Assembly: GCF_030122845.1 (NCBI RefSeq)
Contig: NZ_CP126084.1
Coordinates: forward strand, 2,790,001 to 2,854,000
Reading direction: 5' to 3'
Source: Paenibacillus woosongensis
Lineage (GTDB): Bacteria; Bacillota; Bacilli; Paenibacillales; Paenibacillaceae
Length of the DNA stretch: 64,000 bases
A program made the position numbers and the translations under genes. Below are positions 19,660 to 36,197 of the stretch, one piece after another. Each line of letters opens with the position of its first letter. Position 1 is the stretch's first letter. Below the pieces are notes generated by a model. It saw nothing but the letters and a program-made list of their open reading frames with translations. It searched no databases and was not told the origin of the DNA.

Positions 19660-21729
19660 TCAACGCGTAAATGCTGCCGGTACTCCCCCATCGATCGTCA
19701 GCATGCAGCCCGTAGTCTTATCCGCCTTGGAGGAGGCGAAAAAGGCAATCCCTTCGGCTACGTCCTGCGGGTAAATATTGACTAACAGCGTTGTGCGCTT
19801 GCGGTAATGCTCCTCTAACTGATCCGGCTCAATCCCGTAAGCCGCGGCCCGCTCATTGCGCCAATTCGAGTTCCAAATGGCCGAACCCTGCAGGATCGCA
19901 TCCGGGAGAATCGAGTTCACGCGGATGCCGTATTCTCCCCCCTCTGCGGCGATGCAGCGGGCCAGGTGAGCTTCCAGCGCCTTCACCGAGCTGTAGGCTG
20001 AGGCGTTTTTCCCGGCATAGATCGAATTTTTGGAGCCTACAAACACCATGCTGCCGCCAAGTGCCTGTTCCTTCATCAGCTTGAAGGCTTCTCTCGCCAC
20101 GAGAAAATAACCGGTTCCCAGCACGTTCATGTTCAGATTCCATTCCTGCAGCGAGGTCTCGTCAAAAGGACTCGAAGTCGCCAGTCCCGCGTTGTTGACG
20201 ATGATGTCAACGCCTCCATAATGCAGAGCGGCTTGCTCGTATGCGGCGCGCACCATGTCCTCATTGGTGACATCCATTTTTACGGCCAAAGCGACGTTAT
20301 CGCCGAACTTCCCGTTTATTTCCACGGCCACCTGCTGCGCGCCTTCCAAGTTCAGATCCGCCAGCACCACATGCGCTCCTTCGCTAACGAGGCGCCGTGC
20401 CGTCGCGCTGCCGATGCCGCCTGCTCCGCCCGTAATGAATGCTACCTTACGGGAGAATTCCGCCTCGGCCGGGGCCAGGGACAGCTTATACAGCTCAAGC
20501 GGCCAATATTCTACGTTATATGACTCGTTCTCGCTGAGCGAGACGAACTTGCCGAGCGTCGTCGCACCGCGCATAACTGCGATCGCGCGATGGTATAAGG
20601 CCGCGCTGACTCGGGAATTGGCCCAGCTCTTGCCGGTGTTGATCATTCCAAGTCCCGGTATGAGAATAACCCGCGGAGCCGCTTCGAACATGACATCGCC
20701 CTCATTCTTGTTCCGCTCGAAATAGGCCTTGTACTGCTGCTTGTAGTCAGCGATACCTTCAATCAGCTTCCTGCGCAGCCCTTCGACATCGCTTGCATCC
20801 GGCGTCCAGTTGATAAAGAGCGGAACAACCTTCGTGTGCACGAGATGATCCGGGCAGGCCGCCCCTACCTGGGACAGCTGGGCCGAATCCCTGCTGCCGA
20901 CAAAGGCAAGCACATCCTCTTCATCGTCGAAGGTCAGGATCATTTTCTTGCCGTCGCTGACCGCGCCGCGAATCGAGGGCATAAGCTTTGCGACGATGCT
21001 CTTGCGTTCTTCGCTTGGCAGCGGCTGATGAACCAAGCCGCCGAACAAAGTGGCCTCATTAACGCGGGACTCGATGTAGCGCTCGGCTTCATTGATGATT
21101 TCGATCGTCTTGGCATAGCAGGCTTCAGAGGTATCGCCCCAGGTTACCAGCCCATGCTTCTCCATTAATACAAGCTCGGCCTTAGGGTTATCAAGAACGC
21201 CCTGGGCAATCATTTTCGACAGCGTGAATCCCGGTCGGATGTAAGGGACCCAAACGAAGCGGTCTCCGAAAATTTCCTTCGCAAGCTCTTTGCCGTTATC
21301 TGCGCAGCACAGGCTGATAATCGCGTCCGGATGCGTATGGTCTACATGATTGAACGGCAGAAAAGCATGCAGCAGTGTTTCGATGGAAGCGCGCGGATGT
21401 TTGGAATCGATCATGCAATTTGCCAGGTAGGCGACCATGTCTTCATCAGACATTTCCTCGCGCTCGAATAACGGCTGGATGTCTTCCATACGCAGGCCGG
21501 TGAAATTTCCCTGCTTCACCGTCGCAAGATCCGAACCGCTCCCCTTGACGTACATCACTTCAACGTCACGGCCTCTAAAATCCTTGATTACGGTCTTGCT
21601 TGAAGTATTTCCGCCGCCCCAGTTGCACACCCGGCGGTCCGAGCCGATGAGATTGGAGCGGTAAACGAGTTGGTCAAGTCCTCCCAGCAGTGCGGATGCT
21701 TTAGAAGAGTCCCATAAATTTTGTACCAT
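19660..21729 (-). CDS. rhaEW: Bifunctional rhamnulose-1-phosphate aldolase/L-lactaldehyde dehydrogenase (RhaEW)
   Basis: This 689-residue fusion joins two activities. The N-terminal class II aldolase domain (to about 400) has the zinc-binding stretch FNHVDHTHPDAIISL and NWGGGNTSSK. It splits rhamnulose 1-phosphate into DHAP and L-lactaldehyde. The C-terminal SDR domain has the dinucleotide motif ITGGAGGIGSATARRL, NNAG, and catalytic YSSVK near 585. It oxidises lactaldehyde to L-lactate with NAD+. Making lactate rather than propanediol fits the lutABC genes downstream in the same operon. The size is typical of the fused form found in bacilli. Confidence 0.94.
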   Translation of the reverse strand: MVQNLWDSSKASALLGGLDQLVYRSNLIGSDRRVCNWGGGNTSSKTVIKDFRGRDVEVMYVKGSGSDLATVKQGNFTGLRMEDIQPLFEREEMSDEDMVAYLANCMIDSKHPRASIETLLHAFLPFNHVDHTHPDAIISLCCADNGKELAKEIFGDRFVWVPYIRPGFTLSKMIAQGVLDNPKAELVLMEKHGLVTWGDTSEACYAKTIEIINEAERYIESRVNEATLFGGLVHQPLPSEERKSIVAKLMPSIRGAVSDGKKMILTFDDEEDVLAFVGSRDSAQLSQVGAACPDHLVHTKVVPLFINWTPDASDVEGLRRKLIEGIADYKQQYKAYFERNKNEGDVMFEAAPRVILIPGLGMINTGKSWANSRVSAALYHRAIAVMRGATTLGKFVSLSENESYNVEYWPLELYKLSLAPAEAEFSRKVAFITGGAGGIGSATARRLVSEGAHVVLADLNLEGAQQVAVEINGKFGDNVALAVKMDVTNEDMVRAAYEQAALHYGGVDIIVNNAGLATSSPFDETSLQEWNLNMNVLGTGYFLVAREAFKLMKEQALGGSMVFVGSKNSIYAGKNASAYSSVKALEAHLARCIAAEGGEYGIRVNSILPDAILQGSAIWNSNWRNERAAAYGIEPDQLEEHYRKRTTLLVNIYPQDVAEGIAFFASSKADKTTGCMLTIDGGVPAAFTR

Positions 21730-21781
21730 GTGATAACCTCCGATTGTTTAAGATAATAGCGATTATAGTATTGATATATTT

Positions 21782-23275
21782 TCAGCGGGGCTGAACCAAT
21801 CTCGCTTTGATTTGTTCCCAGCGCGCGCCGGCAACGTCCATTCCTTCCACACCTTCCAAGTCATGAATAGGCCGTGGCTCGTATCTCTTTAACGGAACAG
21901 AATTACCGATGATCCCCCGGGCTTCTTCCAGTCCCTGCAATTGTCCCAAGCTGAGCATCTGGACGGCGATGTTACCTAGAGCGGTCGCCTCCGATGGACC
22001 GGCTATGACCTCGATTTGCGCCATATCTGCGGTTAACTGGCAGAGCAGCTCGTTATTCGCTCCGCCGCCGACAATATGCAGCGTATCGATGCGCTGATCC
22101 GTCAGTCTCTGCAGCTCCTGGATGCTATCTTTGTAGGTCAGTGCCAGGCTGTCGAAGATGCAGCGCGCCAGCTTGCCGGTCGTATCCGGCTCGGGCTGCC
22201 CCGTCTCCCGGCAGCAAGCCCGGATTTCCTCTGTCATGCTGCGGGGGTTTAAGAATCGCTGGTCATTGCAAGGTACCAAGTGCTGAAACGGCTGTTCCCG
22301 CATCGCCAGCTCCGCCAGCGCGGCAAAGCTGTAAGCATTCTGCGTCTCGCGGCGCACCTCCTGGATCATCCAGAGTCCCATAATATTTTTGAGAAAACGA
22401 TACGTGCCGTAAACGCCCCACTCATTCGTATAATTGGCGTTCATTGCCTCGGCCGTGTTCAGCGGAGTGCTGCGCTCCACACCCAGCAAAGACCATGTCC
22501 CGCTGCTGATATATGCCCAGGACGTATGCGGCTGAGCCGGGACCCCCGCAACGGCCGAGGCCGTATCATGGGTCGGAGCAACGATGAGCTCGCAATCGGG
22601 CAAATCGTACTGCCGCTGCAGCTCAGGTGAGATTCTTCCCAGCTTCACGCCCGGCTCCGTAAGCTTCGCGAATTGATCGCGGCGCAGTCCCAATAGCCCG
22701 AGCAGTTTACTGTCAAAATCTCTTTCCGCCAAATTCAGAAGCTGCATGGTCGAGGCGTTCGTCACTTCGTTTATGAGCTTGCCGGTTAAGCGGTAATATA
22801 GATAGTCCGGTACCATTACGATTTTGGCGGCTTGGGAGAGCTGATCGTCTTCATGAACATAGAGCTGGTACAATGTGTTGAACGGCAGCTCTTGAATTCC
22901 TGTCCTGCTGTACACCTCGGCTCTGCTAATCTTTCGGTGCAGACGATCCGGGGCGTCCTTTGTCCTGCCGTCCCGATAAGCGTACACCTCATGAATGCGC
23001 TTTCCATTATCGTCAAGAAGTACATAATCGACAGCCCACGTATCGATCCCAAGCGTACAGGCTTCTATCCCCTCCTTCTTGGCTTGCTGCAATCCCTTGA
23101 CAATTTCCGCAAATAAGTAATCGATGTCCCAATAATCATGCCCTTCTGTTTCGGTAAAAGAATTGCTGAAGCGATGAATTTCCTGCAGTTCGATCCTCCG
23201 CTCCTGCTGATGAAGGGTTCCCCTCACCAGGCGTCCGCTCGAGGCGCCGATATCTACGGCAATGTAGTTCTTCAT
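21782..23275 (-). CDS. rhaB: Rhamnulokinase
   Basis: A 497-residue FGGY-family sugar kinase that phosphorylates L-rhamnulose at C1. The N-terminus has the phosphate-binding strand AVDIGASSGRLVRG typical of rhamnulokinases, where other FGGY kinases have D-x-G-T-x-S. Further motifs are LGIDTWAVDYVLLDDNG, APTHDTASAVAGVPA and IVGGGANNELLCQLTAD, the adenine-binding segment. It is the first gene of the operon, preceded by AAGGAG and a SigA promoter. No rhamnose transporter or mutarotase is present in the window. Confidence 0.95.
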   Translation of the reverse strand: MKNYIAVDIGASSGRLVRGTLHQQERRIELQEIHRFSNSFTETEGHDYWDIDYLFAEIVKGLQQAKKEGIEACTLGIDTWAVDYVLLDDNGKRIHEVYAYRDGRTKDAPDRLHRKISRAEVYSRTGIQELPFNTLYQLYVHEDDQLSQAAKIVMVPDYLYYRLTGKLINEVTNASTMQLLNLAERDFDSKLLGLLGLRRDQFAKLTEPGVKLGRISPELQRQYDLPDCELIVAPTHDTASAVAGVPAQPHTSWAYISSGTWSLLGVERSTPLNTAEAMNANYTNEWGVYGTYRFLKNIMGLWMIQEVRRETQNAYSFAALAELAMREQPFQHLVPCNDQRFLNPRSMTEEIRACCRETGQPEPDTTGKLARCIFDSLALTYKDSIQELQRLTDQRIDTLHIVGGGANNELLCQLTADMAQIEVIAGPSEATALGNIAVQMLSLGQLQGLEEARGIIGNSVPLKRYEPRPIHDLEGVEGMDVAGARWEQIKARLVQPR

Positions 23276-23343: not shown

Positions 23344-23606
23344 CATAAATACATATTTATTTCTTTTTTTATATCTGTTTTTGTTTATTTCGTAATTGGT
23401 TTTATTTTGTTTTTGTGTTTCAGCTTGGCTTGTCTGTATTTTTGCTTGATTTTATAGGGAAACAAAATAAACCCGATTCATCGTAGAATCAGGTTTGGAC
23501 GTTATTTATTGCGGCAGCTTGAAATGATCGGCTATATTAAAGGGGAGGAATTTTATGGAATATACATTTGTATGGCGCATTTTATTGTTTGGACGGAGGA
23601 GGGTCA
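23344..23606. other. Intergenic region between divergent rhaB and the dehydratase gene, with an orphan hairpin
   Basis: The left part is the A/T-rich operator region of the rha operon. At 23469-23496 an 11-bp stem with one C-A mismatch (AAACCCGATTC / GAATCAGGTTT, loop ATCGTA) is followed on the minus strand by TTTATTTTGTTT, so it looks like a terminator pointing toward rhaB. No gene lies upstream of it on that strand. It may insulate the operon from antisense transcripts or be a leftover of a lost gene. No clear plus-strand promoter stands out for the dehydratase gene. Confidence 0.5.
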
Positions 23607-24635
23607 ATGATGCATCAATGGCAGCTAACTTCAGCACCGCCACAGCGTACAATCATTACCAAGGAACGAATCGGCGCGTTTTTGCAGGGCTTTCCCGCAG
23701 TCTTTCGTTCGAGTGTTTCCAGCGTTCCTGTGACGTATCCAATTACGCTGTGGCAGGACGTAGAGCTTCCCTGGCTGCCAGGCGATCAGTGCGGCAAAAC
23801 TATCATTCACGGCCAGCAGGCACTGCAGTATTTTCGGGTTCTACCCTATAATGAGGAGATCATCTGGCAAATTCAGCTGGCAAGCATACGGGAAACGAAA
23901 GGCTCCCAAGGGCCAATGCAATTGCTGGACTGCGTGATGGATGTCAGGAATGCGCATGAGGAACTCATATTACAGGCGAATACCACCCTTCTTCTGGTGG
24001 ATCAGCCGAAACCCCAGCGGCAGCTCCAATCGCATACCAACCCAGCTACCCCTAGGCTTGCCCGACGTACTTTACCTTCCGCGCTGTACGGCCTATGGGA
24101 TAAGGAAAGCTCTCTCGTTCCGGGAGCCGTGCTGATCGATGCCTGCCTCGGCACGATAACCGGGGACATGCTTGTCGCTTATGCCGCAGCTTCCGGCGAT
24201 TACAATGCCATCCATTTGGATGCGCAGAAGGCAGTGGAATTCGGACTGCCCGGCCGGGTGGCTCATGGCATGCTCGTATTAGGCATGGTCGGAAATCTGC
24301 TGCAGGAGCTGCAAACCGCGCATATGAAGCTCAGGAATCTGGAATGCCGCTTTCGCATACCTATTGTGGAAGGGGACACCGTGTTCGCCAAGGTTATTGT
24401 TCAGTCCGTAGTCCCTTCTCAGCCTGCGGACAAAGGGACTTTCATCGACGGTGATGTCCTCAATGAAGCAGAAGCCCAAAATAATCCGGTTATCCATTGC
24501 CTCCTGGAGGTGTTTATCGTTCGGCCTGAGCCTGATTCTTCGTGTTTTGAATCAAATGCAGCTGCTCCTTATACGCGTGGCCAATCGCAGCGCATATTGG
24601 CATACAGCGGTTCGGCCGTTTATGTACTCGTCTAA
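23607..24635 (+). CDS. Double-hotdog MaoC-type (R)-3-hydroxyacyl dehydratase
   Basis: The 342-residue protein joins two hotdog domains. The N-terminal domain (1-140) resembles the FAS1-type dehydratase half, without clear catalytic residues. The C-terminal domain has YAAASGDYNAIHLD near 195 and the turn GRVAHGML, the MaoC/R-hydratase motif with catalytic Asp and His. It would dehydrate or hydrate 3-hydroxyacyl-CoA/ACP. ATG 23607 is favoured by GGAGGAGG a few bases upstream. Its stop overlaps the 3' end of the convergent acyl-CoA dehydrogenase gene by four bases. It probably supplies the dehydration step missing from that convergent gene set. Confidence 0.82.
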   Translation: MMHQWQLTSAPPQRTIITKERIGAFLQGFPAVFRSSVSSVPVTYPITLWQDVELPWLPGDQCGKTIIHGQQALQYFRVLPYNEEIIWQIQLASIRETKGSQGPMQLLDCVMDVRNAHEELILQANTTLLLVDQPKPQRQLQSHTNPATPRLARRTLPSALYGLWDKESSLVPGAVLIDACLGTITGDMLVAYAAASGDYNAIHLDAQKAVEFGLPGRVAHGMLVLGMVGNLLQELQTAHMKLRNLECRFRIPIVEGDTVFAKVIVQSVVPSQPADKGTFIDGDVLNEAEAQNNPVIHCLLEVFIVRPEPDSSCFESNAAAPYTRGQSQRILAYSGSAVYVLV

Positions 24636-25801
24636 TCCCAATGACCGATCTCCACATTTCCTTTCAGCAGATTTCGCGCAATAATGAGCCGCTGAATTTC
24701 ATCCGTGCCCTCATAGATGCGCCATACTCTCATCTCCCGGTACCAGCGCTCGATCGGCAGATCTTTGGAATAGCCCATGCCGCCGTAAATTTGCAGCACC
24801 CTGTCAACGACTTGGTTGGCGACGCCCGCACCGTACAACTTCGACATGGAGGCATGATGACGCGCATCAAGCTGTTTTTCCACCCGCCATGCCGTATGCA
24901 GGACAAGCCATTTCAGCGCCTCGACCTCAACGGCGGAATCGGCAATCATCCATTGAATACTCTGCCTGGAAGCCAGTGTTTCGCCAAAGGTCACCCTTTC
25001 GTTCGCATAATCGATCGCCATCTGCAGCAGCCTCTCCGACGCCCCGACCGCAATGGCCGGGACGACCCAGCGTCCTCTGCTGATCCACTGCATTGCCATC
25101 GTGAGCCCGTGGTCCACTTCGCCGAGCACATTTTCATCGGGAACGAGCACATGGTCAAACGTCAGCAAGGAGGGGCTTTTATCTCCGCCCATCGTCAGAA
25201 TCGGTTCCGACGTCCAGCCCATTTCCCGGTCGACAAGAAAACAGGTAATGCCTTTGTTCTTGCCGGTTAATGGATTGGTCACGGCAAAGACAATGGCGAA
25301 ATCCGCCTCGTTTCCATTCGTAATAAAAGCCTTCTCGCCATTCAAAATCCATCCGCCAACCGTCCGCTTGGCCGACATTTGGATATTGCTTGCATCCGAC
25401 CCGGCTGCCCGTTCGGTAAGCGCAAAGCAGGACTGTCTTTCCCCGGCAATGACCGGGTACAGATACCGTTCCATCTGCTTCTCATTGCACATGAACAGGA
25501 TGTTATCCGCCTCCCCGCCCAGTACAAAAGGAACGCAGGTGCGGCCCAGCTCCATTTTTACGATGGCGCTTGTGATCGTTCCCAGATTGGCTCCTCCATA
25601 TCTTATCGGCGTTTCGATGCCCCAAAGCCCGAGACCTCTAGCTTTGTTCTGAAGCGCCCTAAGCTGCTCCCGGCTGATGCCCTCCTTCCCCTCCCGCTCG
25701 TTGAGAAGCAGCTGGCGCTCCAAAGGAATGAGCTCATCAGCAACAAATTGGCGTACGGTGCGTTGAATATGCTTTTGCTCTTCGGTCAGTTCAAAATTCA
25801 T
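24632..25801 (-). CDS. Acyl-CoA dehydrogenase
   Basis: This 389-residue flavoprotein has the full acyl-CoA dehydrogenase layout: N-terminal helices, the FAD-binding CFALTERAAGSDASNIQ near 135, and C-terminal IYGGMGYSKDLPIERWYREM followed by RIYEGTDEIQRLIIARNLL. The Glu in YEGT is at the position of the catalytic base in medium-chain enzymes. It interconverts acyl-CoA and trans-2-enoyl-CoA, giving electrons to ETF. It is the last gene of the minus-strand lipid/glycosyltransferase cluster, 62 bases after the GT2 gene, and converges on the MaoC gene. The chain length it uses cannot be judged. Confidence 0.93.
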   Translation of the reverse strand: MNFELTEEQKHIQRTVRQFVADELIPLERQLLLNEREGKEGISREQLRALQNKARGLGLWGIETPIRYGGANLGTITSAIVKMELGRTCVPFVLGGEADNILFMCNEKQMERYLYPVIAGERQSCFALTERAAGSDASNIQMSAKRTVGGWILNGEKAFITNGNEADFAIVFAVTNPLTGKNKGITCFLVDREMGWTSEPILTMGGDKSPSLLTFDHVLVPDENVLGEVDHGLTMAMQWISRGRWVVPAIAVGASERLLQMAIDYANERVTFGETLASRQSIQWMIADSAVEVEALKWLVLHTAWRVEKQLDARHHASMSKLYGAGVANQVVDRVLQIYGGMGYSKDLPIERWYREMRVWRIYEGTDEIQRLIIARNLLKGNVEIGHWD

Positions 25802-25863
25802 GCTTCTTTTCAGCTCCTTATGAATATGGTCCGATTATGATCCGATATTAAAGCGATCCCAAC

Positions 25864-27000
25864 TCAATCGAACACCTGCTGCCTCCAAATTCCTCTTGCT
25901 GCAAATATGCGGTACAGCTCGACAAGCTGCCTCTCGGTAGGGTGTTTATAGTAGAGCACATCGTAAGCTTGCCTGATCGACTGGCAGATAAGGTCGAGAT
26001 CGGATAATGCGGTTTGATCGATCACGGCGACTTCCCTGCCTGCTGCCTCGGAAGTAATCGCATTGACCGCTTCGGTGCTATGCTTATAAACCACGATAAT
26101 GCTGACGGGATAACGGCCCCCCTCATACCCTTGATAGGCCCGGACGACATTTTCGAACCTTACGTAGCAGTCCCACCAGGAAATTCTGATTTGCGGGTTG
26201 AAAAATTCCGCCAGGATTTTTTGCGCTTCTACTTCAAAGGACGGGTGGCGGGAGAAGAAATGCTGCAAATTCGCCAGCCAGCCAGCGTAACGGGCCTCAT
26301 TGAATTCGGAAGGATGATGCACATGATAGGCAAGCGCGTTTTTGTTGAAAATAAATGAACCGCCTCCCTGCTCCAGCCTGTAGCCGAGCTCGCTGTCCTC
26401 CAGTCCCCAGCCCACGAAACCGTCATTAAACATGCCGGCTTCGATCAGCCTCTCCCTTCTGACCGATATATTGCAGCTGAAGAACAGATGCCAGGCCGTT
26501 CGGAGCGATCCGGCATTCTCGGAAAACCGCTCCATCAGCCAAAACCGTTCATCTTCCTCGAAGGGCGGCAAGCTGCCTGCTTCAAAAAGCGCTTTTCCTC
26601 GCCCCCCAGCGATCGCTCCTTGCTCCAAATACCTTCTAAAGCCGATGACAAGCTTGTCCTCCGCAAATTTATGAACGCGCAAATGCTCGGCGACGAATCC
26701 CGGGCCGGGAATTTGATCCCCATCCAGAAAAATAACGATATCACCGCTTGCGCTTACAATGCCCTGATTACGGGATGCAGCTCTGCTCGATTCCGCCGTC
26801 TCAGGAATGTATTTATAAGTCAGCGGGTAATTTACCGCCAATTGATGAATCATTTCCCCTGTGCCATCCGTTGACCCGTTATCGACGAGTATGACCTCGA
26901 AGCCGTCCCCCTCCTGCAGGTATTGGCGGGATAGGGAAGTCAGGCAAGCTTCGATAATTTCTTGCTGATTATAGGCCAGTATGACAATGCTAGCCTTCAT
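25864..27000 (-). CDS. Glycosyltransferase family 2 protein
   Basis: The 378-residue protein has a GT-A fold. VILAYNQQEIIEACLTSL opens the domain, VDNGSTDGTGEM is the nucleotide loop, and IFLDGDQIPGPGF holds the D-x-D metal-binding motif near 94. A galactosyltransferase-like segment follows: GWGLEDSELGYRLEQGGGSF with the E-D-x-E-L-x-x-R pattern of GT2/GT7C-type enzymes. It transfers a sugar from a nucleotide donor to an unknown acceptor. ATG 27000 has AAAGGAGA upstream. It sits between a GT1 enzyme and an acyl-CoA dehydrogenase, so a glycolipid or glycosylated acyl product is plausible. Confidence 0.9.
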   Translation of the reverse strand: MKASIVILAYNQQEIIEACLTSLSRQYLQEGDGFEVILVDNGSTDGTGEMIHQLAVNYPLTYKYIPETAESSRAASRNQGIVSASGDIVIFLDGDQIPGPGFVAEHLRVHKFAEDKLVIGFRRYLEQGAIAGGRGKALFEAGSLPPFEEDERFWLMERFSENAGSLRTAWHLFFSCNISVRRERLIEAGMFNDGFVGWGLEDSELGYRLEQGGGSFIFNKNALAYHVHHPSEFNEARYAGWLANLQHFFSRHPSFEVEAQKILAEFFNPQIRISWWDCYVRFENVVRAYQGYEGGRYPVSIIVVYKHSTEAVNAITSEAAGREVAVIDQTALSDLDLICQSIRQAYDVLYYKHPTERQLVELYRIFAARGIWRQQVFD

Positions 27001-27111
27001 AGAATTCTCCTTTCTCGGCTCGCAGCCCGGGAACATGCATTGCCTCGTGGCCGAAAATTATAGGGCAAAGCTGATAACTCCTTTTTATTAAGGTCAATCT
27101 ATGCGCAATGC

Positions 27112-28338
27112 CTATAGCAGTCCGTTAATTAAGGCGGCAGCGCGTTCTGCGCCTCCGTAATGACGGGAAGCAATGCTGTCCCGTAATGTTTGCGCCTGCT
27201 CCAAAGCACCCCCGCTGAGCATCGTATCCACGGTTTCCGCCAGCCGCTGACCCGTCATCTCGTTAGGGCGGATCATACAGCCGCCGCCAATATGCTGCAG
27301 CTGCCTAGCGTTGAACTCCCTTTCCGCCCAGGTAGGAATCATCAATGAAGGTGTGCCTGTCAATAGCGTCGTCATGCAGCTCCCGTGCCCGCCGTGGTGT
27401 ATCATAATATCGCTTCGCTCTGCCGCCATCACCCCGGATACGTAAGTCGCAAAGCTCACATTCGGAGGAATTTTCTCCTGATCCCCTTCCAGCGGATTAA
27501 AGCCCGTAGCGATCAATATTTCCGTAGAAGTATGACCCAGCGCATGGACCACTTCCCTGAAAATATGTCCGCCGCTCTCAACTCCCCATTCCACGAGCCT
27601 GCTCGTATACACGAATACGCGTCTTTTCCCGGCTATGCTCCGCTCCTCGGCCAGCCAGGACGGCGGCAGACCTGCCACGCTGTCATCCCTCCAGACGATC
27701 GGACCGACATATTCCAGGGGGATTGAGAGGGCCCTTGGATCTACGGGATCAAATTCTGGGATGCTTGGCACAATTGCTAAATCGCCGGCCAAGAAGGTCA
27801 AGACATTGTCGCTCTGTTCCAGTCCGTGCAAAGCAAGCGTTTCGTTTAGCGCCACAGTGACAGCATTACCGGCGCCGTTCTCTATCGGTCTTGCCGCTGC
27901 CTCTGGGTTAAATGGCACGCCTCCGGGAAGGGAGCAGGACTGGTGGATGGAAACGAGCGGAATTCCAAGCTTGCGGGCAATGAAAGCGGCCGACAAACTG
28001 GAATCTGTGAGCACGAGATCCGGCTTGAAGGCTGACGTTGCACCCAGCCTGGATTCAAGCTCGTTCTTCATATATACCGGGTCGGCATAACCCATCATCG
28101 CCAGAAATTGATGGAAATCCGCAAAATCGGGATCGAATGTCTGGCCCTTCGGCTCCGGAATAGGTGGAATCGGGATAGCTTCAAAGCCGAGCTTCTCCAT
28201 GGCTGCACCCGCATTTCCCCAAATCGTAAAAGCGACCTCATGCCCCATGTCCCGAAGCTTGAGTGCGATGGGCAAGCAGCGGTTGACCCTGCCCATTCCG
28301 GCCATCATGCCGATAAATATTCTTTTTTTCTTCAACAA
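27112..28338 (-). CDS. MGT-type glycosyltransferase (GT1, UDP-sugar dependent)
   Basis: This protein of about 408 residues has the GT1 GT-B fold of macrolide/flavonoid-type UGTs. The acceptor domain starts RIFIGMMAGMGRVNRCLPIA. The donor motif is SDIMIHHGGHGSCMTTLLTG followed by PTWAEREFNARQL. Such enzymes glycosylate small hydrophobic acceptors. TTG at 28338 was chosen because GGGGGA lies six bases upstream and the first beta-strand follows directly; an upstream in-frame start would overlap the SDR gene. It is 20 bases after the SDR gene. With the acyl-CoA enzymes around it, a hydroxy-fatty-acid acceptor is possible, as in glycolipid biosynthesis. Confidence 0.88.
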   Translation of the reverse strand: MLKKKRIFIGMMAGMGRVNRCLPIALKLRDMGHEVAFTIWGNAGAAMEKLGFEAIPIPPIPEPKGQTFDPDFADFHQFLAMMGYADPVYMKNELESRLGATSAFKPDLVLTDSSLSAAFIARKLGIPLVSIHQSCSLPGGVPFNPEAAARPIENGAGNAVTVALNETLALHGLEQSDNVLTFLAGDLAIVPSIPEFDPVDPRALSIPLEYVGPIVWRDDSVAGLPPSWLAEERSIAGKRRVFVYTSRLVEWGVESGGHIFREVVHALGHTSTEILIATGFNPLEGDQEKIPPNVSFATYVSGVMAAERSDIMIHHGGHGSCMTTLLTGTPSLMIPTWAEREFNARQLQHIGGGCMIRPNEMTGQRLAETVDTMLSGGALEQAQTLRDSIASRHYGGAERAAALINGLL

Positions 28339-28358
28339 GGCATTCCCCCATAGCTCGA

Positions 28359-29207
28359 TCAATTCAACGATTCGGTCAATAATTCGGCGGCAATTTCGCT
28401 GGCCTTCCAATGTCCCGATGTACGCGAGGTCAGCAATTCATGCTTGGGTCGTGCCCATAATCCGATATCGCCGCCGTTAACGGAGAATATTTCACCGCTA
28501 ATTCCCCGGGTTTGCGGGAGGCTTAGCGCCACCGCCAGCTCGGCCGCCTCTTCGGGCGTTCCGACCCGCCAATAATCGGGGAGGTTTTGGCCCGCAGCCT
28601 CAGCATCCCGCCTCGCCCGCTCGATATACGGAGCCGTCATGTCCGTCAAGGCCGCCGGAGCGATGGCATTGACGCTGATTCCGTAATGCCGGAGCTCCAG
28701 TGCCAGCGTCCACGTCATGCCAAGCAAGCCGGCTTTAGCCGCGCTGTAGTTGAGCTGCCCCGCTGTTCCGGTTAAGCCCGCTGTTGAGGTCATATTGATG
28801 ATGCAGCCCTGTCTTCTCTCCCTCATGCCCGGCAGCGCGGCCCGAATGCAGGAGAAGGCTCCTTTCAAATGAATGCTGATCACAGCGTCCCAATCCTCTT
28901 CGCCAAGCTTGTGCGCCATTTGATCGCGGATAATTCCAGCGTTGTTCACCAGAATATCCACCTGGCCGAACTCCGCCGTCGCCGCGGAGATGATCCGAGC
29001 TCCGCCCTCCATCGTATGGACCGGTTCGGCGATGCCGATGGCGACGCCGCCGTTTTGGCGAATTTCCTCAACAACTGCGTTAACACGGCTAGCATCGGTA
29101 CCATTAACGACCACCCGGGCACCTTCTTGTGCCATTCTAAGGGCGATCGCCCGGCCGATACCGCGGCTGGAGCCGGTTATCACTGCAGTTTGCTGGTTAA
29201 GGTGCAT
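28359..29207 (-). CDS. SDR family oxidoreductase (FabG-like 3-ketoacyl reductase)
   Basis: A 282-residue classical short-chain dehydrogenase: ITGSSRGIGRAIALRM is the NADP-binding glycine motif, NNAG lies near 90, and catalytic Ser and Y-x-x-x-K appear in MTSTAGLTGTAGQLNYSAAK. The C-terminus is about 30 residues longer than FabG, with an extra tail after FSVNGGDIGLW. In this cluster it most likely reduces a 3-ketoacyl-CoA made by the adjacent thiolase, or oxidises the 3-hydroxyacyl-CoA. It lies 15 bases after the thiolase gene. Confidence 0.9.
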   Translation of the reverse strand: MHLNQQTAVITGSSRGIGRAIALRMAQEGARVVVNGTDASRVNAVVEEIRQNGGVAIGIAEPVHTMEGGARIISAATAEFGQVDILVNNAGIIRDQMAHKLGEEDWDAVISIHLKGAFSCIRAALPGMRERRQGCIINMTSTAGLTGTAGQLNYSAAKAGLLGMTWTLALELRHYGISVNAIAPAALTDMTAPYIERARRDAEAAGQNLPDYWRVGTPEEAAELAVALSLPQTRGISGEIFSVNGGDIGLWARPKHELLTSRTSGHWKASEIAAELLTESLN

Positions 29208-29222
29208 GCAGCTGCCTCCTTT

Positions 29223-30392
29223 TTATACACATTTCTCCCATAACGTCGCGAGCCCCAGTCCGCCGCCGATACCGAGCGTCGTCATGCCCCTTGCAGCGTC
29301 CATGCTCCGCATTTCGCTGAACAGGCGTGTGACGAGAATGGCACCGGAGGCTCCGTAAGGATGGCCCAGCGCGATAGCTCCGCCGCCGACATTGACGATT
29401 TCCTCCGGTATGCTCAGCTGCTGCAGAGAGGCCAGCACCTGCGAGGCAAAAGCTTCATTGAATTCCACGATATCGAGATCACTTACCGTCAGGCTGTTTC
29501 TTGCGAGCAGCTTGCTTACCGCGGGTACCGGACCGATCCCTAAATAATTCGGATCGACACCGGCTGCGGCCGAATCGACGAACTGCATGACAGGCTGCAA
29601 GCCTAATGAGCGGGCCATCTTGAGTGACATCAACAGGACGATCGCTGCACCGTCATTGACCGGGCAAGCGTTCCCCGCCGTTACCGTGCCATCGGCATCG
29701 AATGCGGGCGGCAGAGCCGCGAGCTTCTCGAGCGTTGTGCCCGGGCGCGGACATTCATCCGTATCGATGATGATTGCTTCACGCTCTGCCGTAATGGAGA
29801 CCGGCACGATTTCGCCCTGAAAGCGCCCGCTGCGGATCGAGTCCACGGCCTTGTTTTGGCTATGAAGTGCAAATAAATCCTGCTGCTCCCTGGTGATCCC
29901 ATATTTGTTAGCAACATTGTTCGCGGCCTTGCCCATATCCGGATCACCGATACAATCAGGCGAGAACCTTGCGCGGCCCATAATCGCAGGAAATCCTCTG
30001 CCATATAATGAAAGAGGTTTCTCGATCTTCCACGGCGCTCGGCTTGTGCTCTCTACACCGCCCGCCAAATAGATCTCGCCCGCTCCAGCCTGAATCAGCC
30101 GCGCCGCCAGATGAATCGCTTCTAGACCCGAACCGCATTGACGGTCGACCGTAACTCCTGGAACCTCCACCGGAAGTCCGGCGGTCAAAGCGGACAATCT
30201 GGCGATATTGCCGCCCGGGCCAACTGCATTGCCGAGGATTACGTCATCGATATCCCCAGGGTTCACGGATGTTTCGCCCAGAATAGCTCGAATCACCTCT
30301 GCGGCGAGCACCTCGGGCGGAATCTCCCTGAACATTCCTCCATATTTGCCGATGGCCGTTCGTTTGGCAGCTACAATCACGGGAATGGACAT
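29223..30392 (-). CDS. Thiolase family protein with altered active site
   Basis: The 389-residue protein is of the acetyl-CoA acetyltransferase/3-ketoacyl-CoA thiolase family. The nucleophile Cys lies in DRQCGSGLEAIHLAA near 88 and the catalytic His in GGGAIALGHPYGASGA near 345. The second catalytic Cys, normally in C-x-G-G-G-x-G near the C-terminus, is Gly here: the sequence reads TTLGIGGGLGLATLW (codon GGT instead of TGT). Thiolysis or Claisen condensation may therefore be impaired or changed. ATG 30392, preceded by GGAAGGGGGG, is two bases after the ligase stop. Upstream in-frame residues belong to the ligase overlap. Confidence 0.9.
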   Translation of the reverse strand: MSIPVIVAAKRTAIGKYGGMFREIPPEVLAAEVIRAILGETSVNPGDIDDVILGNAVGPGGNIARLSALTAGLPVEVPGVTVDRQCGSGLEAIHLAARLIQAGAGEIYLAGGVESTSRAPWKIEKPLSLYGRGFPAIMGRARFSPDCIGDPDMGKAANNVANKYGITREQQDLFALHSQNKAVDSIRSGRFQGEIVPVSITAEREAIIIDTDECPRPGTTLEKLAALPPAFDADGTVTAGNACPVNDGAAIVLLMSLKMARSLGLQPVMQFVDSAAAGVDPNYLGIGPVPAVSKLLARNSLTVSDLDIVEFNEAFASQVLASLQQLSIPEEIVNVGGGAIALGHPYGASGAILVTRLFSEMRSMDAARGMTTLGIGGGLGLATLWEKCV

Positions 30393-30394
30393 GC

Positions 30395-31948
30395 TCACAC
30401 CCCCCTTCCGGCCAGCCAACCATGGATGGACGCGCGCGATATTTTGCCGCTGTTCGTGTAAGGGAAAGATTCGACCCGCAAAATTTTCTTCGGGCATTTA
30501 TAGCTGGCCAGCCGCTTGCGGCAGTGTGCCATAATATCCTGGTCGCTGATCACCGCGTCTTGTTTTGCTTTCACGAGAGCCACGACCTTTTGCCCCCAGT
30601 AGGCGTCAGGCAGTCCAGCTACAATGGCCTCCTCGATTTCCTCCAACGACAGCAAAATTTTCTCGATCTCTTCGGGGTAAATGTTAAGCCCTCCGCTGAT
30701 GATCATATTGTTGCTTCTGCCCACCATATAGAGGAAGCCTTCTGAGTCCCTCATCGCCAGATCTCCTACCGTTGCCCACTCTCCATGGATAACCTGCTTC
30801 GTTTCGTCTGCATTATTGAAGTAGCCGGAGAAAATCATGCCGCTTCTGATATAAATCTGTCCCACTTCGCCTGCCCCCGCTTCTGTACCGTCAGGCTTGC
30901 GCAAGGACACCTTCACTCCGTTAAACGGCTTGCCGATCGAGTCCGGTCTAGCTTTGTTGCCTGCTGGATCCAGCACCGTGACGAAGCTGAGCTCGGACGC
31001 GCCATAGAATTCGTAAATGCCTGCCTGAGGAAAGGCCTCCCCTGCCTTCCGCTTCGATTCCGGTGTCCACTTGTCTCCCGTCGTAATTAATGATTTTACT
31101 TGCGGCGCAGTAAAAACAGGAGTTTGCGAGATCGCTTCATGGTACAGCGCTTCGAATATCGTTGGAACGAGATAAATATGGGTAATGGGACAGGCCCCCA
31201 GCATAGCCAGCGCCGTCGCGGCCTTGAATTTTCGCGGGAGATAGAAGGTTCCGCCAAGATACAAGGTTTGAATCGCCGCATAAATCGTCAAAGAGTGTAC
31301 GAGCGGCCCGGTACCGAGAACATGGTCGGCTTCGCTTAAGCCAAATGCCTCCTTGGCCTGAGCGAAGCTCTCCATCCATGAATGCTGAGCACGGAGGAAG
31401 CCTTTCGGCATTCCGGTGGTTCCTGAAGTAAACCCCATATAGAATATGCTGTCCGGGGTTGAATTGCGGGAAAATCGGTGCCCGGCTGAACCAGCACTGG
31501 CGGCAGCCGCATTGCCTTCGCGACTATGGTCCCTAATTTCCTCCTGCACTGCGGAATCGCTGTCGATGACGATCAGCTTCGTCGTATCAGGAACACTGGC
31601 CAAGCGAGGCAGCAAATCGATGCCAACAACCAAAATAGCCGGCCTGCACTCCCCTAAAATCGCATCGATATTTGCATCGGCCCATTTCGGATCGAATAGC
31701 GCTGAGCATAACCCGAGCTTTGCCGCAGCCAAAAAATATTGCACGAACTCCACACTGTTATGCAGCAAGAAACCGATGAGCGTATGCCCAGCTTGATTAA
31801 AGCTATTCTCAAAGGCCATAAGTTCGCAAGCCGCCTCGTTGATGGCCTTATCAAGCTCCTGATATGTCAACCGGCGGTGATCGACGACGAGCGCGGTTTT
31901 CTCCGGTTTTTCGGCGGCGTGTGCTAGAACGGCCTCCGTAATCAGCAT
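30395..31948 (-). CDS. AMP-forming acyl-CoA ligase
   Basis: A member of the ANL superfamily of about 517 residues that activates a carboxylic acid with ATP and CoA. It has the P-loop FTSGTTGMPKGF near 170, YEFYGASELS near 310, GDLAMRDSEGFLYMVGRSNN (the hinge Asp and Arg) and the C-terminal catalytic Lys in NSGKISR near 505. The substrate pocket suggests no clear acid; fatty or aromatic acids are both possible. ATG 31948 has AGAAGG upstream. It heads the thiolase-SDR-GT1-GT2-dehydrogenase run and follows yerA by only 38 bases. Confidence 0.9.
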   Translation of the reverse strand: MLITEAVLAHAAEKPEKTALVVDHRRLTYQELDKAINEAACELMAFENSFNQAGHTLIGFLLHNSVEFVQYFLAAAKLGLCSALFDPKWADANIDAILGECRPAILVVGIDLLPRLASVPDTTKLIVIDSDSAVQEEIRDHSREGNAAAASAGSAGHRFSRNSTPDSIFYMGFTSGTTGMPKGFLRAQHSWMESFAQAKEAFGLSEADHVLGTGPLVHSLTIYAAIQTLYLGGTFYLPRKFKAATALAMLGACPITHIYLVPTIFEALYHEAISQTPVFTAPQVKSLITTGDKWTPESKRKAGEAFPQAGIYEFYGASELSFVTVLDPAGNKARPDSIGKPFNGVKVSLRKPDGTEAGAGEVGQIYIRSGMIFSGYFNNADETKQVIHGEWATVGDLAMRDSEGFLYMVGRSNNMIISGGLNIYPEEIEKILLSLEEIEEAIVAGLPDAYWGQKVVALVKAKQDAVISDQDIMAHCRKRLASYKCPKKILRVESFPYTNSGKISRASIHGWLAGRGV

Positions 31949-31986: not shown

Positions 31987-33708
31987 CTAACGAGTATCCA
32001 GTCGAACAGGACTGGCAAGCACATGTCCGTTCTTAACCAGATACAGTCCCTTCGCAGACATGCGTATGTTAGGCAGATGGGAAGCGGTCAGAAAAAGCAG
32101 CGTATAGGCGGGATCGCGAAACCGATAGCCGTGTTCCTTCATCCGAAGCGCAAAAAGACCAAGAGATTCGCTGATCTCTTCCATGTTCCCGGCGCTCATT
32201 GTGCCGCCTAACGGAAGGGGGATATGCAGCTTATCCCCGTTGATGAAAGAAGCCAGTATCCCGTCGCCACGCTCGTTCAGCTCCTGCAATATGTCGCATA
32301 TCCCCTTTTCACTCCTGCCGATCAGCAAAGTATCTCCTGAGGCGCTATAAGTGCTGGCCAGCGCCGTAACCCCAGAAGCAAAGCCTTTTATACGGGTATG
32401 AAGCGTCCACTTCCCTTTAGAGTCAAGCAGCGTAATGAAGCTCTCCTCGTCCCCTAGCCGTTCACCAGCAATAAATTCGTAAGGCTTCGTAATGACATCG
32501 TTGACAAGCTCAATACCTGTGCTGCCTTGTCCACGGATCTGTTCCGGGACCAGCTCGGCAGGCACTCTTCGGGCCGGGAAATAGGATTGTAGCCAGCTTG
32601 TGACAGCAGCTTCATCGGCCGGCTGCATGTCTTCCCGGTTCCAGATGCGCCATGTCCCCTGCTGCATAACATGGAGCGGAGCCGGCTCGTTCAGCGAGTC
32701 CAGAACGTTGAAGCTGGCAAGCCTGCCGGGGGCAATGCCGCCCAGATCTTCATCGAGCCCATAGTACGTCGCCGGATTCAGGGTAGCCAGCCTGTAAGCT
32801 TCTACGGCGGATAAGCCGGCTTCCATGCACAGCTTGATCATGCCGGGAATGCTGTGCTCCTCCGTAAAATGCGGCGAAGGTCCGTCGCTCGTAAGCATAA
32901 CGCGGTTCAAATTAAAACGCGGATCGCCGGCCAGGCCAGCCAAAATATCCGGCAGATCCGGGCGTATAGAAGAGTATCTGAGGCTGGCGTACAGTCCGAG
33001 CTTCAATCTCTTTAGCACATCCTCGGCATTTAGAGACTCGTGATCCGCTCCGATACCCGCCGCCGCGATCCCGCTGATTTTTTCATAGGAGACGCCTGGC
33101 AGATGACCTTCTACTCGCAAACGCGCGCTCTTTAACAGATGCAGCCGTTCCAGCAGCTCCTCATCGCCCTGAAGAAGCTGAAACCATTCCGTAAATTCAC
33201 CGCCTTGAATGACAAGCGGATGAGCAAGCCACGTTTTGAGCAAATACCGGTCGCCAGCCTGCACTTGATCAAAATTGCACCACCACAAAGACATATGGCT
33301 GCTGATCCGGTCTAATTCCTCAATAAACGAGATCGCCCGCTCGCCAAGGAGCATAAGCAGGGACAAGTTATCGTTAACCGATAACACGGACCCTTGACGG
33401 AGCTGGCTGACGCCCCAAGTGAACGGGTTGTACATTTGACAGGGATGCGCATGAGGCTCAATATAACCGGGAACGACGATTTGCCTCTGCTCCAGTTCAA
33501 TGATTTGCGTATTCGGCGTTACTGGAAATTCCTTGTCTCCGACGTAGGCGATCCGGTTGCCGGAAACGTAAATATGCCCCCTTTCGACTTGTCCCGTGTA
33601 TACGTTGAGATAGGCTGCATTCTTCAACCAAACATCCGGAGGTTTGCGGCCAAGGGATACGGCAATAAGGTCGCGGTATTCTTCAAGAGTGCATGGATAT
33701 ATTCGCAT
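31987..33708 (-). CDS. YerA-like adenine deaminase family amidohydrolase
   Basis: The 573-residue protein belongs to the adenine-deaminase branch of amidohydrolases and resembles Bacillus YerA, a putative adenine deaminase. Metal ligands are visible: PGYIEPHAHP (H-x-H, near 85), VEGHLPG, GADHES and the Asp in TSDGPSPHF, where true Ade proteins usually differ slightly. A C-terminal Ade domain follows (LPLGGTMSAGNMEEI). Its natural substrate is uncertain. GAGGAGG precedes ATG 33708. It lies nine bases after ecfT, suggesting cotranscription with an ECF transporter module. Confidence 0.82.
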   Translation of the reverse strand: MRIYPCTLEEYRDLIAVSLGRKPPDVWLKNAAYLNVYTGQVERGHIYVSGNRIAYVGDKEFPVTPNTQIIELEQRQIVVPGYIEPHAHPCQMYNPFTWGVSQLRQGSVLSVNDNLSLLMLLGERAISFIEELDRISSHMSLWWCNFDQVQAGDRYLLKTWLAHPLVIQGGEFTEWFQLLQGDEELLERLHLLKSARLRVEGHLPGVSYEKISGIAAAGIGADHESLNAEDVLKRLKLGLYASLRYSSIRPDLPDILAGLAGDPRFNLNRVMLTSDGPSPHFTEEHSIPGMIKLCMEAGLSAVEAYRLATLNPATYYGLDEDLGGIAPGRLASFNVLDSLNEPAPLHVMQQGTWRIWNREDMQPADEAAVTSWLQSYFPARRVPAELVPEQIRGQGSTGIELVNDVITKPYEFIAGERLGDEESFITLLDSKGKWTLHTRIKGFASGVTALASTYSASGDTLLIGRSEKGICDILQELNERGDGILASFINGDKLHIPLPLGGTMSAGNMEEISESLGLFALRMKEHGYRFRDPAYTLLFLTASHLPNIRMSAKGLYLVKNGHVLASPVRLDTR

Positions 33709-33717
33709 CGTTCCTCC

Positions 33718-34521
33718 TCACATTCTGAGTGCGATCAGCACGGACATGAATAGTCCCGACACGAGCAGCGTTTTGAAGTCGATGGCTTGCAAAGCAAGCG
33801 TTCTTAGCTGTGTGCGCTGCATTCCTGGCTGGTAACCCCGGGCTTCAATCGCCTGGGAGGCACTTTCGGCTTTCTGGAACGCCAGCATCAGGACGGGTAC
33901 AATAATCGGGATAAAGTTCAGCAATCTTTTGACTATGTTGCCGGAGGCGAAATCAACGCCCCTGGCTCTTTGGGCTTTCATAATTTTGTCGGTTTCCTGC
34001 AGGAGAATCGGAATAAAGCGAATCGTTAACGTCATCATCATGGCGATTTCCTGTGTCGGCACCCCTATTCTGCGGAGCGGTGACAACAGTGTTTCAATGG
34101 CGCTGGTCAAATCGCTCAGCTTCGTCGTTAAGGTCAGCAAGGTGGCCATGGCTAACAGTAAAATGATGCGTACAGCAATCGCAATCGCCTTAAGCACGCC
34201 TTGCTCATAGATGGACACAGAGCCAAGTTGAATCAGCACCTCTCCGCCCTGCGTCAAGAAAATATGAAAGACCGACGTAATGATCACAATCAGCCATACC
34301 GGCTTTAATCCTCTGATGATGTAGGTGAGCGGTATTTTGGAAATGGCAATGGCGGCCGCGACCATAAGCGCCAGCAGAACGTAAGAGACAAGCGTCGTGA
34401 GGAGCAGCGCCGAAATCATGAAGGCCATGACGATCAACAGCTTCGTTCGCGGATCGAGCTCATGGACCAGCGATTTCTTATCAATGTACTGCCCAAATAT
34501 CAGATGCTGGGTCAAGGCCAT
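33718..34521 (-). CDS. ecfT: EcfT, transmembrane coupling subunit of ECF transporter
   Basis: The 267-residue membrane protein couples ATP hydrolysis by EcfA1/EcfA2 to vitamin capture by an S component. Hydrophobic helices are followed by the two cytosolic ARG motifs that contact the ATPases (KAQRARGVD near 170 and QAIEARGYQ near 210). An N-terminal signature HELDPRTKLL is also typical. Its ATG is three bases from the ecfA2 stop. Housekeeping ecf modules in bacilli usually sit beside ribosomal protein genes; this one instead lies beside bioY and yerA, so it may be a dedicated biotin-uptake module. Confidence 0.93.
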   Translation of the reverse strand: MALTQHLIFGQYIDKKSLVHELDPRTKLLIVMAFMISALLLTTLVSYVLLALMVAAAIAISKIPLTYIIRGLKPVWLIVIITSVFHIFLTQGGEVLIQLGSVSIYEQGVLKAIAIAVRIILLLAMATLLTLTTKLSDLTSAIETLLSPLRRIGVPTQEIAMMMTLTIRFIPILLQETDKIMKAQRARGVDFASGNIVKRLLNFIPIIVPVLMLAFQKAESASQAIEARGYQPGMQRTQLRTLALQAIDFKTLLVSGLFMSVLIALRM

Positions 34522-34524: not shown

Positions 34525-35400
34525 TCAGACCCCTCCTTTTCCGCTGGCGATGAGGAAATGATCGGCGAGCTGCGCCAGAATCGCTTCCTTCTTCACGGAC
34601 TCAACCGTTATAGGGGTGTACAGCTTGGCGTTTAATTGCTCGACGAGGGACAGCGCCAGCGGGAGCTTTAGTCCTAACGACTCGATTTCCTGCCGATAAT
34701 ACGTAAAGAGCGTAAGCGGATCTGTTTTGAGTTTGACTTTACCACTTTCGAAAACGATGACGTCTTCAGCGTACTCGGCCAATAGGTCCATATCATGGGT
34801 TACAATGACCAGCGTGCGCTGCTTCTCCTTGCGCCAGCTGAGAAACAGCTCCATAAGCGACTGTTTGCCCTCGGTATCCAAACCTACCGTAGGCTCGTCC
34901 AGAATAAGCACGGAAGGCTCCATCACCAGCACTCCGGCAATCGCAGCTCTCCTCTTCTCCCCGCCGCTTAGCTCAAATGGCGACCGATCTCCGAAAGATT
35001 CGTCCAGACCGACCAGCCTAAGCGCCTCCAGCGCCTTGGCTCGGATCAGATCCTGCGGCCAGCCTAACTGGTTGGGACCAAAGGAAATATCCTTTAGAAC
35101 GGTCTCCTCAAATAGCTGGTGCTCCGGCATTTGAAATACGATGCCCACTTTGTCAAAGAGAACGGGCTTCCTTTTGCTGCCGCTCCTGATGATGGTGTCG
35201 CCAACATGGATGCTTCCCCGCGTCGGGTACAGCAGTCCATTAAGATGTTGGACGAAGGTAGATTTGCCAGAGCCCGTCCTTCCTACGACAGCGGTAATTT
35301 TATTGCTGTCCAGCTTCAAATTGAGTCCGCGCAGCACTTCGTTCTCGAGCGGCGTTCCAGCGTTATAGGAGTAAAATACGTCATTTAATGTAATTTCCAT
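34525..35400 (-). CDS. ecfA2: EcfA2, energy-coupling ATPase
   Basis: The 291-residue ABC ATPase has Walker A GRTGSGKST near 39, signature LSGGEKRRAAIAG and Walker B VLILDEPTVGLD. The downstream residues are typical of EcfA2. ATG 35400 was chosen because it begins the conserved MEITLNDVFYSYNAGTP; a longer frame from 35565 reads through the ecfA1 end and lacks a ribosome-binding site. The start overlaps the ecfA1 stop by 16 bases. With EcfA1 it forms the heterodimeric motor that binds the EcfT ARG motifs. Confidence 0.93.
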   Translation of the reverse strand: MEITLNDVFYSYNAGTPLENEVLRGLNLKLDSNKITAVVGRTGSGKSTFVQHLNGLLYPTRGSIHVGDTIIRSGSKRKPVLFDKVGIVFQMPEHQLFEETVLKDISFGPNQLGWPQDLIRAKALEALRLVGLDESFGDRSPFELSGGEKRRAAIAGVLVMEPSVLILDEPTVGLDTEGKQSLMELFLSWRKEKQRTLVIVTHDMDLLAEYAEDVIVFESGKVKLKTDPLTLFTYYRQEIESLGLKLPLALSLVEQLNAKLYTPITVESVKKEAILAQLADHFLIASGKGGV

Positions 35401-36197
35401 AATCCATCCACCAAATCTTCCATACAAAATAGGTTGCGCGGGAGCGGAATCCCTTTGCTTCGCAAAGCGTCCCTTACGTTTACAGCGAAAGGAGCCGCCA
35501 AGCCGGGAATCGAGAGATAGCCCTCCTCGAACAGCTTGCCCGGCGGACCGTCGTACCGAATACATCCATGATCCAGAACGATCAGTCTAGACGCCTCGGC
35601 CAGTTCCTCCATATCATGGGTGATTGAAATGATTGTGATCCCCTTCCGATTCAGTTCCCTGATCAGGCCCAGCACCTGCTGTCTGCCTTCCGGATCAAGC
35701 ATCGAAGTCGACTCGTCGAATATAATTACATCCGGCTCTACTGCCAGAATGCCGGCAATCGCAATTCTCTGTTTCTGACCGCCCGATAAGGAATCGACAT
35801 CAGCGTGGATGTAATCCAGCATGCCTACGCGTTCCAATACGAGCCTCACTTTCGTGGCAATCTCTTCTGGGGACAAGCAGAGATTCTGCAGGCCAAAAGC
35901 AACATCTTCATACACGGTAGAAGCAACGATTTGATTTTCGGGATTCTGAAAGACCATCCCGATTTTTTGTCGTATCGTTCCCAGCTCCCGTTCATTGCTG
36001 GTCCGGTAATCCTTATATCGTACCTCGCCCTCCGTAGGCAGCAGCAGCCCGTTGATCAGCTTGGCTGCCGTGGATTTCCCAGTGCCGTTTGTTCCTGCGA
36101 TAATCACATATTCACCGGGTGAAATCGTAAAGGATATATCGCTGAGAACGCAGTCCTGCTGGGGATACTGGAATGAGACGCCCGAAAAATGAATCAT
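35385..36197 (-). CDS. ecfA1: EcfA1, energy-coupling ATPase
   Basis: The 270-residue ABC ATPase has Walker A GTNGTGKST near 38, the Q-loop VFQNPENQIVASTVYEDVAFG that is typical of ECF ATPases, signature LSGGQKQRIAIAG and Walker B VIIFDESTSMLD. In this protein the Walker B ending reads DES rather than DEP, as in many EcfA1 proteins. It pairs with EcfA2. A good terminator separates it from bioY upstream, so it either has its own promoter in 36198-36255 or depends on readthrough. Confidence 0.93.
   Translation of the reverse strand: MIHFSGVSFQYPQQDCVLSDISFTISPGEYVIIAGTNGTGKSTAAKLINGLLLPTEGEVRYKDYRTSNERELGTIRQKIGMVFQNPENQIVASTVYEDVAFGLQNLCLSPEEIATKVRLVLERVGMLDYIHADVDSLSGGQKQRIAIAGILAVEPDVIIFDESTSMLDPEGRQQVLGLIRELNRKGITIISITHDMEELAEASRLIVLDHGCIRYDGPPGKLFEEGYLSIPGLAAPFAVNVRDALRSKGIPLPRNLFCMEDLVDGLWKLH

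Follow-up and report, generated by a model that had tools for sequence, protein, structure and literature searches.

A long BioY-linked locus that joins acyl-processing genes to glycosyltransferases in Paenibacillus

What does a set of acyl-processing enzymes do when it is encoded beside two glycosyltransferases and a vitamin-type importer? The question is raised by a locus, here called the long locus, in a 64,000-nucleotide stretch of Paenibacillus woosongensis DNA (the window; positions 2790001-2854000 in a complete genome of 5.29 Mb). A sequence-only reading had picked out seven of its genes, encoding a ligase, a thiolase, a short-chain dehydrogenase/reductase (SDR), the glycosyltransferases GT1 and GT2, an acyl-CoA dehydrogenase (ACAD) and a double-hotdog dehydratase, as a self-contained candidate cluster for a glycosylated acyl compound. 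The seven families are all borne out by Pfam and NCBIfam, the gaps of 2, 15, 20, 111 and 62 bases are exactly as claimed, and the hotdog gene does converge on the ACAD gene with a four-base overlap (24632-24635), but the cluster is not self-contained: it is the downstream half of what is likely an operon headed by bioY and the genes of an energy-coupling factor (ECF) transporter. The architecture is firmly that of a variant, previously undescribed in the literature searched, of a BioY-linked unit that is itself known but unexplained. The chemistry that we propose for it is hypothetical: our best explanation, held tentatively, is a re-wired BioY-linked pathway that turns an imported acid into a glycosylated acyl product and once exported it.

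The eleven genes bioY-ecfA1-ecfA2-ecfT-amidohydrolase-ligase-thiolase-SDR-GT1-GT2-ACAD, from 36875 to 24632 on the minus strand, likely form one predicted operon. It starts, with bioY at 36875, 5 kb upstream of the seven genes originally described, and bioY, ecfA1, ecfA2, ecfT and the amidohydrolase gene all lie upstream on the ligase strand with gaps of no more than 108 bases. The features of the region are as follows.

36986-37015, minus strand: intrinsic terminator-like stem at the upstream boundary, a 13-pair stem then a T run, after the sulfite reductase gene
36919-36957, minus strand: 39-bp promoter/operator element ATTGACATGAAAAAAATATTATGTCATTATTGTGTCAAT, containing the promoter match and TGACA/TGTCA half-sites
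36306-36875, minus strand: bioY, S component of an ECF biotin transporter (PF02632; 4dve homologue)
35385-36197, minus strand: ecfA1, ECF ATPase (Pfam), kept in all long loci
34525-35400, minus strand: ecfA2, ECF ATPase (Pfam/NCBIfam ECF_ATPase_2)
33718-34521, minus strand: ecfT, CbiQ family (PF02361, E 1e-43)
31987-33708, minus strand: YerA-like amidohydrolase of the adenine deaminase (ADE) family, metal-ligand motifs EPHAHP, EGHLPG, ADHE and TSDG intact
30395-31948, minus strand: acyl-AMP/acyl-CoA ligase, YhfT-like (PF00501; motifs TSGTTGMPKG, YGASE and SGKI)
29223-30392, minus strand: thiolase-like protein, YhfS-like; Cys, Asn and His present, Cys378 replaced by Gly (GIGGG)
28359-29207, minus strand: FabG-like SDR reductase (GSSRGIG, NNAG, YSAAK)
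27112-28338, minus strand: GT1, macrolide-type GT-B glycosyltransferase (HHGGHGS; EryCIII-like_C above cut-off)
27001-27111, minus strand: remnant of a deleted transporter gene of the major facilitator superfamily (MFS), recognised by aligning it with genome G126, where the MFS gene is intact
25864-27000, minus strand: GT2, GT-A type glycosyltransferase with a C-terminal extension (DGD motif)
24632-25801, minus strand: ACAD (catalytic-Glu motif YEGT)
23607-24635, plus strand: double-hotdog MaoC dehydratase/hydratase (GDYNAIHLD motif)
23469-23496, minus strand: intrinsic terminator-like stem at the downstream boundary, 11 pairs

The case for a single operon is that terminator-like stems bound it at both ends, that the region's top promoter match, TTGACA-17-(TG)CATTAT (36956-36928), stands directly before bioY, and that the minus strand has no stem of more than 8 pairs inside the unit. 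The total of terminator- and promoter-like matches is not above shuffled expectation, so that only their positions are informative. The 39-bp element occurs once in the window genome and recurs with at most one difference in P. woosongensis (G005), P. ihumii and G126; a search of the window against Rfam gave no match. Genes for all four parts (S, T, A1 and A2) make up a dedicated ECF module of the group I type, and its BioY, which matches the solved homologue L. lactis BioY (4dve) at E 1e-33, is the sole BioY found in the window genome.

Is this arrangement more than a chance neighbourhood? The long locus is present in eight genomes: the window genome, P. woosongensis G005 (whose locus is about 97% identical), G270, P. 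ihumii (G012), G126, G080, G089 (labelled P. polymyxa ISL-58) and Paenibacillus sp. PCH8. The genes bioY-ecfA1-ecfA2-ecfT-amidohydrolase-ligase-thiolase-SDR-GT1-ACAD and the convergent hotdog gene are common to all eight, and the neighbourhood survey upholds the earlier idea that the glycosyltransferase genes are conserved with the acyl-CoA genes, GT1 being kept in 8/8 long loci and GT2 in 7/8, P. ihumii being the one without it. Protein identity to the window is about 97% at its highest and falls, gene by gene, to lows of about 40-78%; in the other long loci the ACAD is 77-98% identical. All genes tested are under purifying selection, with pairwise ratios of nonsynonymous to synonymous substitution (dN/dS) of 0.04-0.37 (GT1 0.08-0.17, GT2 0.06-0.07), weakest for the hotdog gene. 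PCH8 has a split GT2 and a shortened ACAD frame, through sequencing error or decay. At E <= 1e-60, GT1 is found in 4/246 genomes of the order and 4/398 of the class, and all of these belong to this family.

In four of the eight loci (G126, G080, G089 and PCH8) a Pfam-assigned MFS transporter gene separates GT1 from GT2. The 111-base gap of the window, P. woosongensis and G270 aligns with the two ends of this gene, holding its start region with a ribosome-binding-site-like sequence and about its last 25 codons, and is therefore a deletion remnant; GT2 and the MFS gene have each been lost in some species. The transporter, acyl genes and glycosyltransferases could in principle be separate units brought together by chance, as the gaps of 111 and 62 bases could hold promoters and the hotdog gene lies on the opposite strand, but the MFS deletion accounts for the longer gap, and the order is kept in eight genomes that span two genus-level groups with differing flanking genes. 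Because the order recurs in this way and purifying selection acts on all genes tested, we find a chance arrangement barely credible.

Where, then, does the core come from? The genes bioY and yhfT-yhfS make up a widespread biotin-controlled set. Both are under BirA in Bacillus and Staphylococcus, where yhfT-yhfS encode a putative ligase and acetyltransferase with no role established in the literature consulted (PMC6391492, PMC7235819, PMC11089781). B. subtilis YhfT converts fatty acids to acyl-AMP, from which the acyl group goes to acyl carrier protein (ACP) for surfactin synthesis (PMC10988940). What the long locus has in common with this unit is BioY combined with a ligase resembling YhfT and a thiolase resembling YhfS. 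These two are likely YhfT and YhfS orthologues, although the models score below their curated cut-offs (448 bits against 518 for PRK07638, the top NCBIfam model of the ligase; PRK06690 is the second-best model of the thiolase), and the window thiolase falls in the same clade as thiolases of BioY loci. Since YhfT passes its acyl adenylate to ACP, the long-locus ligase may make no CoA ester. The long locus is unlike the bioY-yhfT-yhfS unit in having no BirA operator, in its additional amidohydrolase, GT1, MFS, GT2 and ACAD genes, and in a ligase and thiolase that form their own clade, nearer to Azospirillum and Rhizobium.

A thiolase search also brought out short loci in Paenibacillus, with the order bioY-ligase-thiolase-hotdog-hotdog-SDR-ecfA1-ecfA2-ecfT, which additionally share the paired hotdogs, SDR and ECF module with the long locus. 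A few have no recognisable bioY, hotdogs or ECF genes, and all those seen are without glycosyltransferases, ADE-family amidohydrolase or ACAD. The window double-hotdog protein corresponds to both single hotdogs, its N-terminal half matching one and its C-terminal half the other, and the long and short enzyme sets are therefore equivalent. A BirA operator, TTGTNAACC-N13-16-GGTTNACAA, is found with 0-1 mismatches at 17 of 21 short loci (scored over 16 fixed positions, none of 100 shuffles being as good), and at none of the eight long loci, where there are 5-6 mismatches, as in shuffles. Perfect BirA boxes do occur at two other sites in the window genome, one upstream of bioB and one ahead of a YkoE-type ECF transporter.

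Midpoint-rooted trees of thiolase, ligase and BioY each part the long from the short loci (support for the long group 99/98, 100/100 and 97/97), and in all three the BioY-locus homologues of Azospirillum, and of R. etli where included, stand beside the long lineage (91/79, 98/99 and 93/89). The concordance of the three trees suggests that the core moved as a unit, and this core (BioY, YhfT-like ligase, YhfS-like thiolase, SDR and paired hotdogs) is a diverged sister lineage of the bioY-yhfT-yhfS unit. The long locus probably did not arise in recent times by expansion, in place, of the Paenibacillus short locus; we considered such an origin and set it aside because of the placement beside Azospirillum and R. 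etli, for which the thiolase support is moderate. An Azospirillum plasmid locus (NC_013857; EcfA-EcfT-BioY-ligase-thiolase-MFS) has adjacent genes for BioY, the ligase and a thiolase with the GIGGG motif discussed below, sister to the long lineage in the three gene trees, but, unlike the long locus, has no glycosyltransferases, amidohydrolase or ACAD. Its MFS protein has no detectable homology to that of the long locus.

Does the long locus simply do the same job as the BirA-controlled units, for example acyl salvage or remodelling at biotin scarcity, with glycosyltransferases that came later and decorate envelope lipids only? The two types of locus have core genes of the same kinds, each includes a set resembling ketosynthase, ketoreductase and dehydratase, and the window genome has this BioY only, with bioB as the sole biotin-pathway gene found. 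We nonetheless think a shared job distinctly unlikely, given the absence of BirA control from every long locus, the separate ligase and thiolase clades, and the ADE, GT1 and ACAD genes that occur in no short locus seen.

As to biotin supply, searches of the window genome, G005 and G126 for bioA, bioF and bioD gave no match above the noise of other aminotransferases and left bioB as the only ring-forming gene found, and we rejected biotin prototrophy of the window genome accordingly. This bioB stands alone (genome positions 2290962-2292062, an SDR gene downstream) behind its BirA box, and dependence on dethiobiotin is possible. The other perfect BirA box (genome positions 894620-894652) precedes genes for a YkoE-type (PF09819) ECF S component and a fused EcfA; it is the same in G126 and near-identical in G005. 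The arrangement suggests a BirA-regulated, non-BioY transporter of biotin or a vitamer in bioB-only genomes.

Can the enzymes of the long locus run a beta-oxidation cycle in either direction? The sequence-only reading saw a full cycle, condensation or cleavage included, and enzymes for each step of (reverse) beta-oxidation are indeed present: ligase, thiolase, reductase, dehydratase and dehydrogenase. Motif checks find the signatures of the SDR, ACAD, ligase, hotdog protein, amidohydrolase, GT1 and GT2 intact, and it is at the thiolase that the cycle is open to doubt. This protein keeps the nucleophilic Cys89, Asn316 and His348 (CGSG, NEAF and GHPYGASG), but Cys378 of the CxG motif, the proton-abstracting base of thiolases (PMC3406046), which serves Claisen condensation and thiolysis, is replaced by Gly, giving GIGGG for CIGGG. 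Gly378 (as GIGGG or GVGGG) is common to all 24 long- and short-locus thiolases in the alignment and to the Azospirillum and R. etli thiolases, whereas three outgroup thiolases retain Cys378. With Gly at this position a plain reverse beta-oxidation cycle is doubtful, and the residues point to a possible acyltransferase or decarboxylating condensing enzyme. We also note that the Gly378 group is mostly linked to BioY, in Firmicutes and in Azospirillum.

The same residue bears on whether the locus is catabolic. ECF-BioY might import a biotin-like or other nitrogen-containing carboxylic acid, possibly biotin, with MFE2-style (R-specific) beta-oxidation shortening the side chain, the amidohydrolase opening a ureido or amide ring, and the glycosyltransferases being add-ons or serving to detoxify intermediates. 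The locus does combine an enzyme for every beta-oxidation step with an importer and a cyclic-amide-type hydrolase, its lack of a BirA box is as expected for a role other than biotin supply, and a homologous set lies in a catabolic-looking context on the Thermus thermophilus plasmid pHB5018c (NZ_AP024272). That cluster (ligase-thiolase-amidohydrolase-ADE-MaoC-PaaI-SDR) shares the ligase with the long locus, together with homologues of its thiolase (46%), amidohydrolase (34%), SDR (38%) and MaoC protein (34%), PaaI being the second hotdog gene, and it adjoins genes for a branched-chain-type ABC transporter and for aromatic (phenylacetate-like) catabolism. One of its two amidohydrolases is YerA/ADE-like, and catabolism of a nitrogen-containing acid is possible there. 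The parallel is incomplete, however, in that the Thermus cluster has no BioY and no glycosyltransferases and its thiolase retains Cys378, the residue needed for thiolysis that is Gly in the window thiolase and all close relatives aligned. GT1, moreover, is kept in every long locus under purifying selection with no obvious catabolic place. We regard a catabolic role as doubtful, if well worth keeping in view. A literature search for biotin catabolism genes found nothing bacterial.

What would the glycosyltransferases contribute? The closest structural matches of GT1, the one protein modelled, are macrolide- and calicheamicin-type natural-product glycosyltransferases including CalG1 (the model is of modest quality, with a predicted local distance difference test score, pLDDT, of 65), and GT1 searched against plasmids matched no more than distant macrolide glycosyltransferases (22-25%). 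GT2 has a paralogue (46%; genome positions 359117-360268) in a second locus, L016 (genome 356-368 kb), where it is again paired with an MFS homologue (36% to the G126 protein); this second locus is also found in P. woosongensis (L018) and in part in P. ihumii (L019). It has GT2 and MFS genes in common with the long locus, is without BioY or thiolase, and looks like a separate small-molecule cluster. L016 also contains genes for an AMP-ligase, two ACADs, haem-oxygenase-like, BtrH-like and HAD proteins and a methyltransferase.

In the glycosylated-product pathway that we favour, ECF-BioY would import a biotin-like or other small carboxylic acid, which the ligase, going by its family, would convert to an acyl-AMP or a thioester. 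Decarboxylating ketosynthases have a Cys-His-Asn set like the one that remains in the thiolase-like protein, which may transfer or extend the acyl chain instead of performing classical thiolysis; the SDR, double hotdog and ACAD would adjust the beta-position and saturation, the amidohydrolase could open or trim a C-N ring or amide, GT1 and then, where present, GT2 would add sugars, and the MFS protein would have exported the product where its gene is kept. Synthesis is favoured by a conserved GT1 with natural-product-type relatives, by a GT2-MFS pair that recurs with ligase and ACAD genes, and by the thiolase change. The small-molecule type of GT1 and the ancestral MFS neighbour fit a glycosylated small product, as first suggested for these genes, although the direction may be either synthesis or degradation.

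Several observations weigh against this pathway. BioY, the amidohydrolase and the ACAD suit a catabolic route equally well, and the homologous Thermus set does without glycosyltransferases beside its phenylacetate-catabolism-like neighbours. No sugar-nucleotide genes were recognised in the locus, and no ketosynthase or ACP among its scanned open reading frames, those below 100 residues not having been searched for ACP. The MFS gene is missing from 4/8 loci and GT2 from 1/8, so that glycosylation by GT2 and export are dispensable, and co-transcription is itself a prediction. A narrower version, in which biotin or a close analogue (dethiobiotin) is imported and activated, its valerate chain remodelled by a decarboxylating GIGGG enzyme with the SDR, hotdog and ACAD, and the result glycosylated and exported, strikes us as a long shot; if true, the product would be a vitamin-derived glycosylated antimetabolite or signal built from a scavenged cofactor.

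Elsewhere in the window, a radical SAM protein resembling TrsS/tetraether-lipid synthase is encoded beside an Lgt-like diacylglyceryl transferase (11985-14212, minus strand), both scoring below curated cut-offs. Rhamnose catabolism genes (rhaB, rhaD-ADH, rhaI and DeoR) and then LutABC-like lactate-oxidation genes occupy 14414-23275 on the minus strand, and there is a local dip in GC content at 42001-44000 (0.40 against about 0.51). The short locus of genome G023 adjoins a similar rhamnose-LutABC block, and was considered as standing at the same site as the long locus; the correspondence is only rough, since both are near rha-lut genes but at different ends.

The Gly378 thiolases, linked to BioY-type loci in Firmicutes and Alphaproteobacteria, are annotated as 'acetyl-CoA acetyltransferase', and a different reaction is predicted for them. 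The long locus offers a natural experiment, in which a bioY-yhfT-yhfS-like core has escaped BirA and acquired glycosyltransferases and a hydrolase, and a detectable glycosylated, possibly secreted product could let the chemistry of that core be read back.

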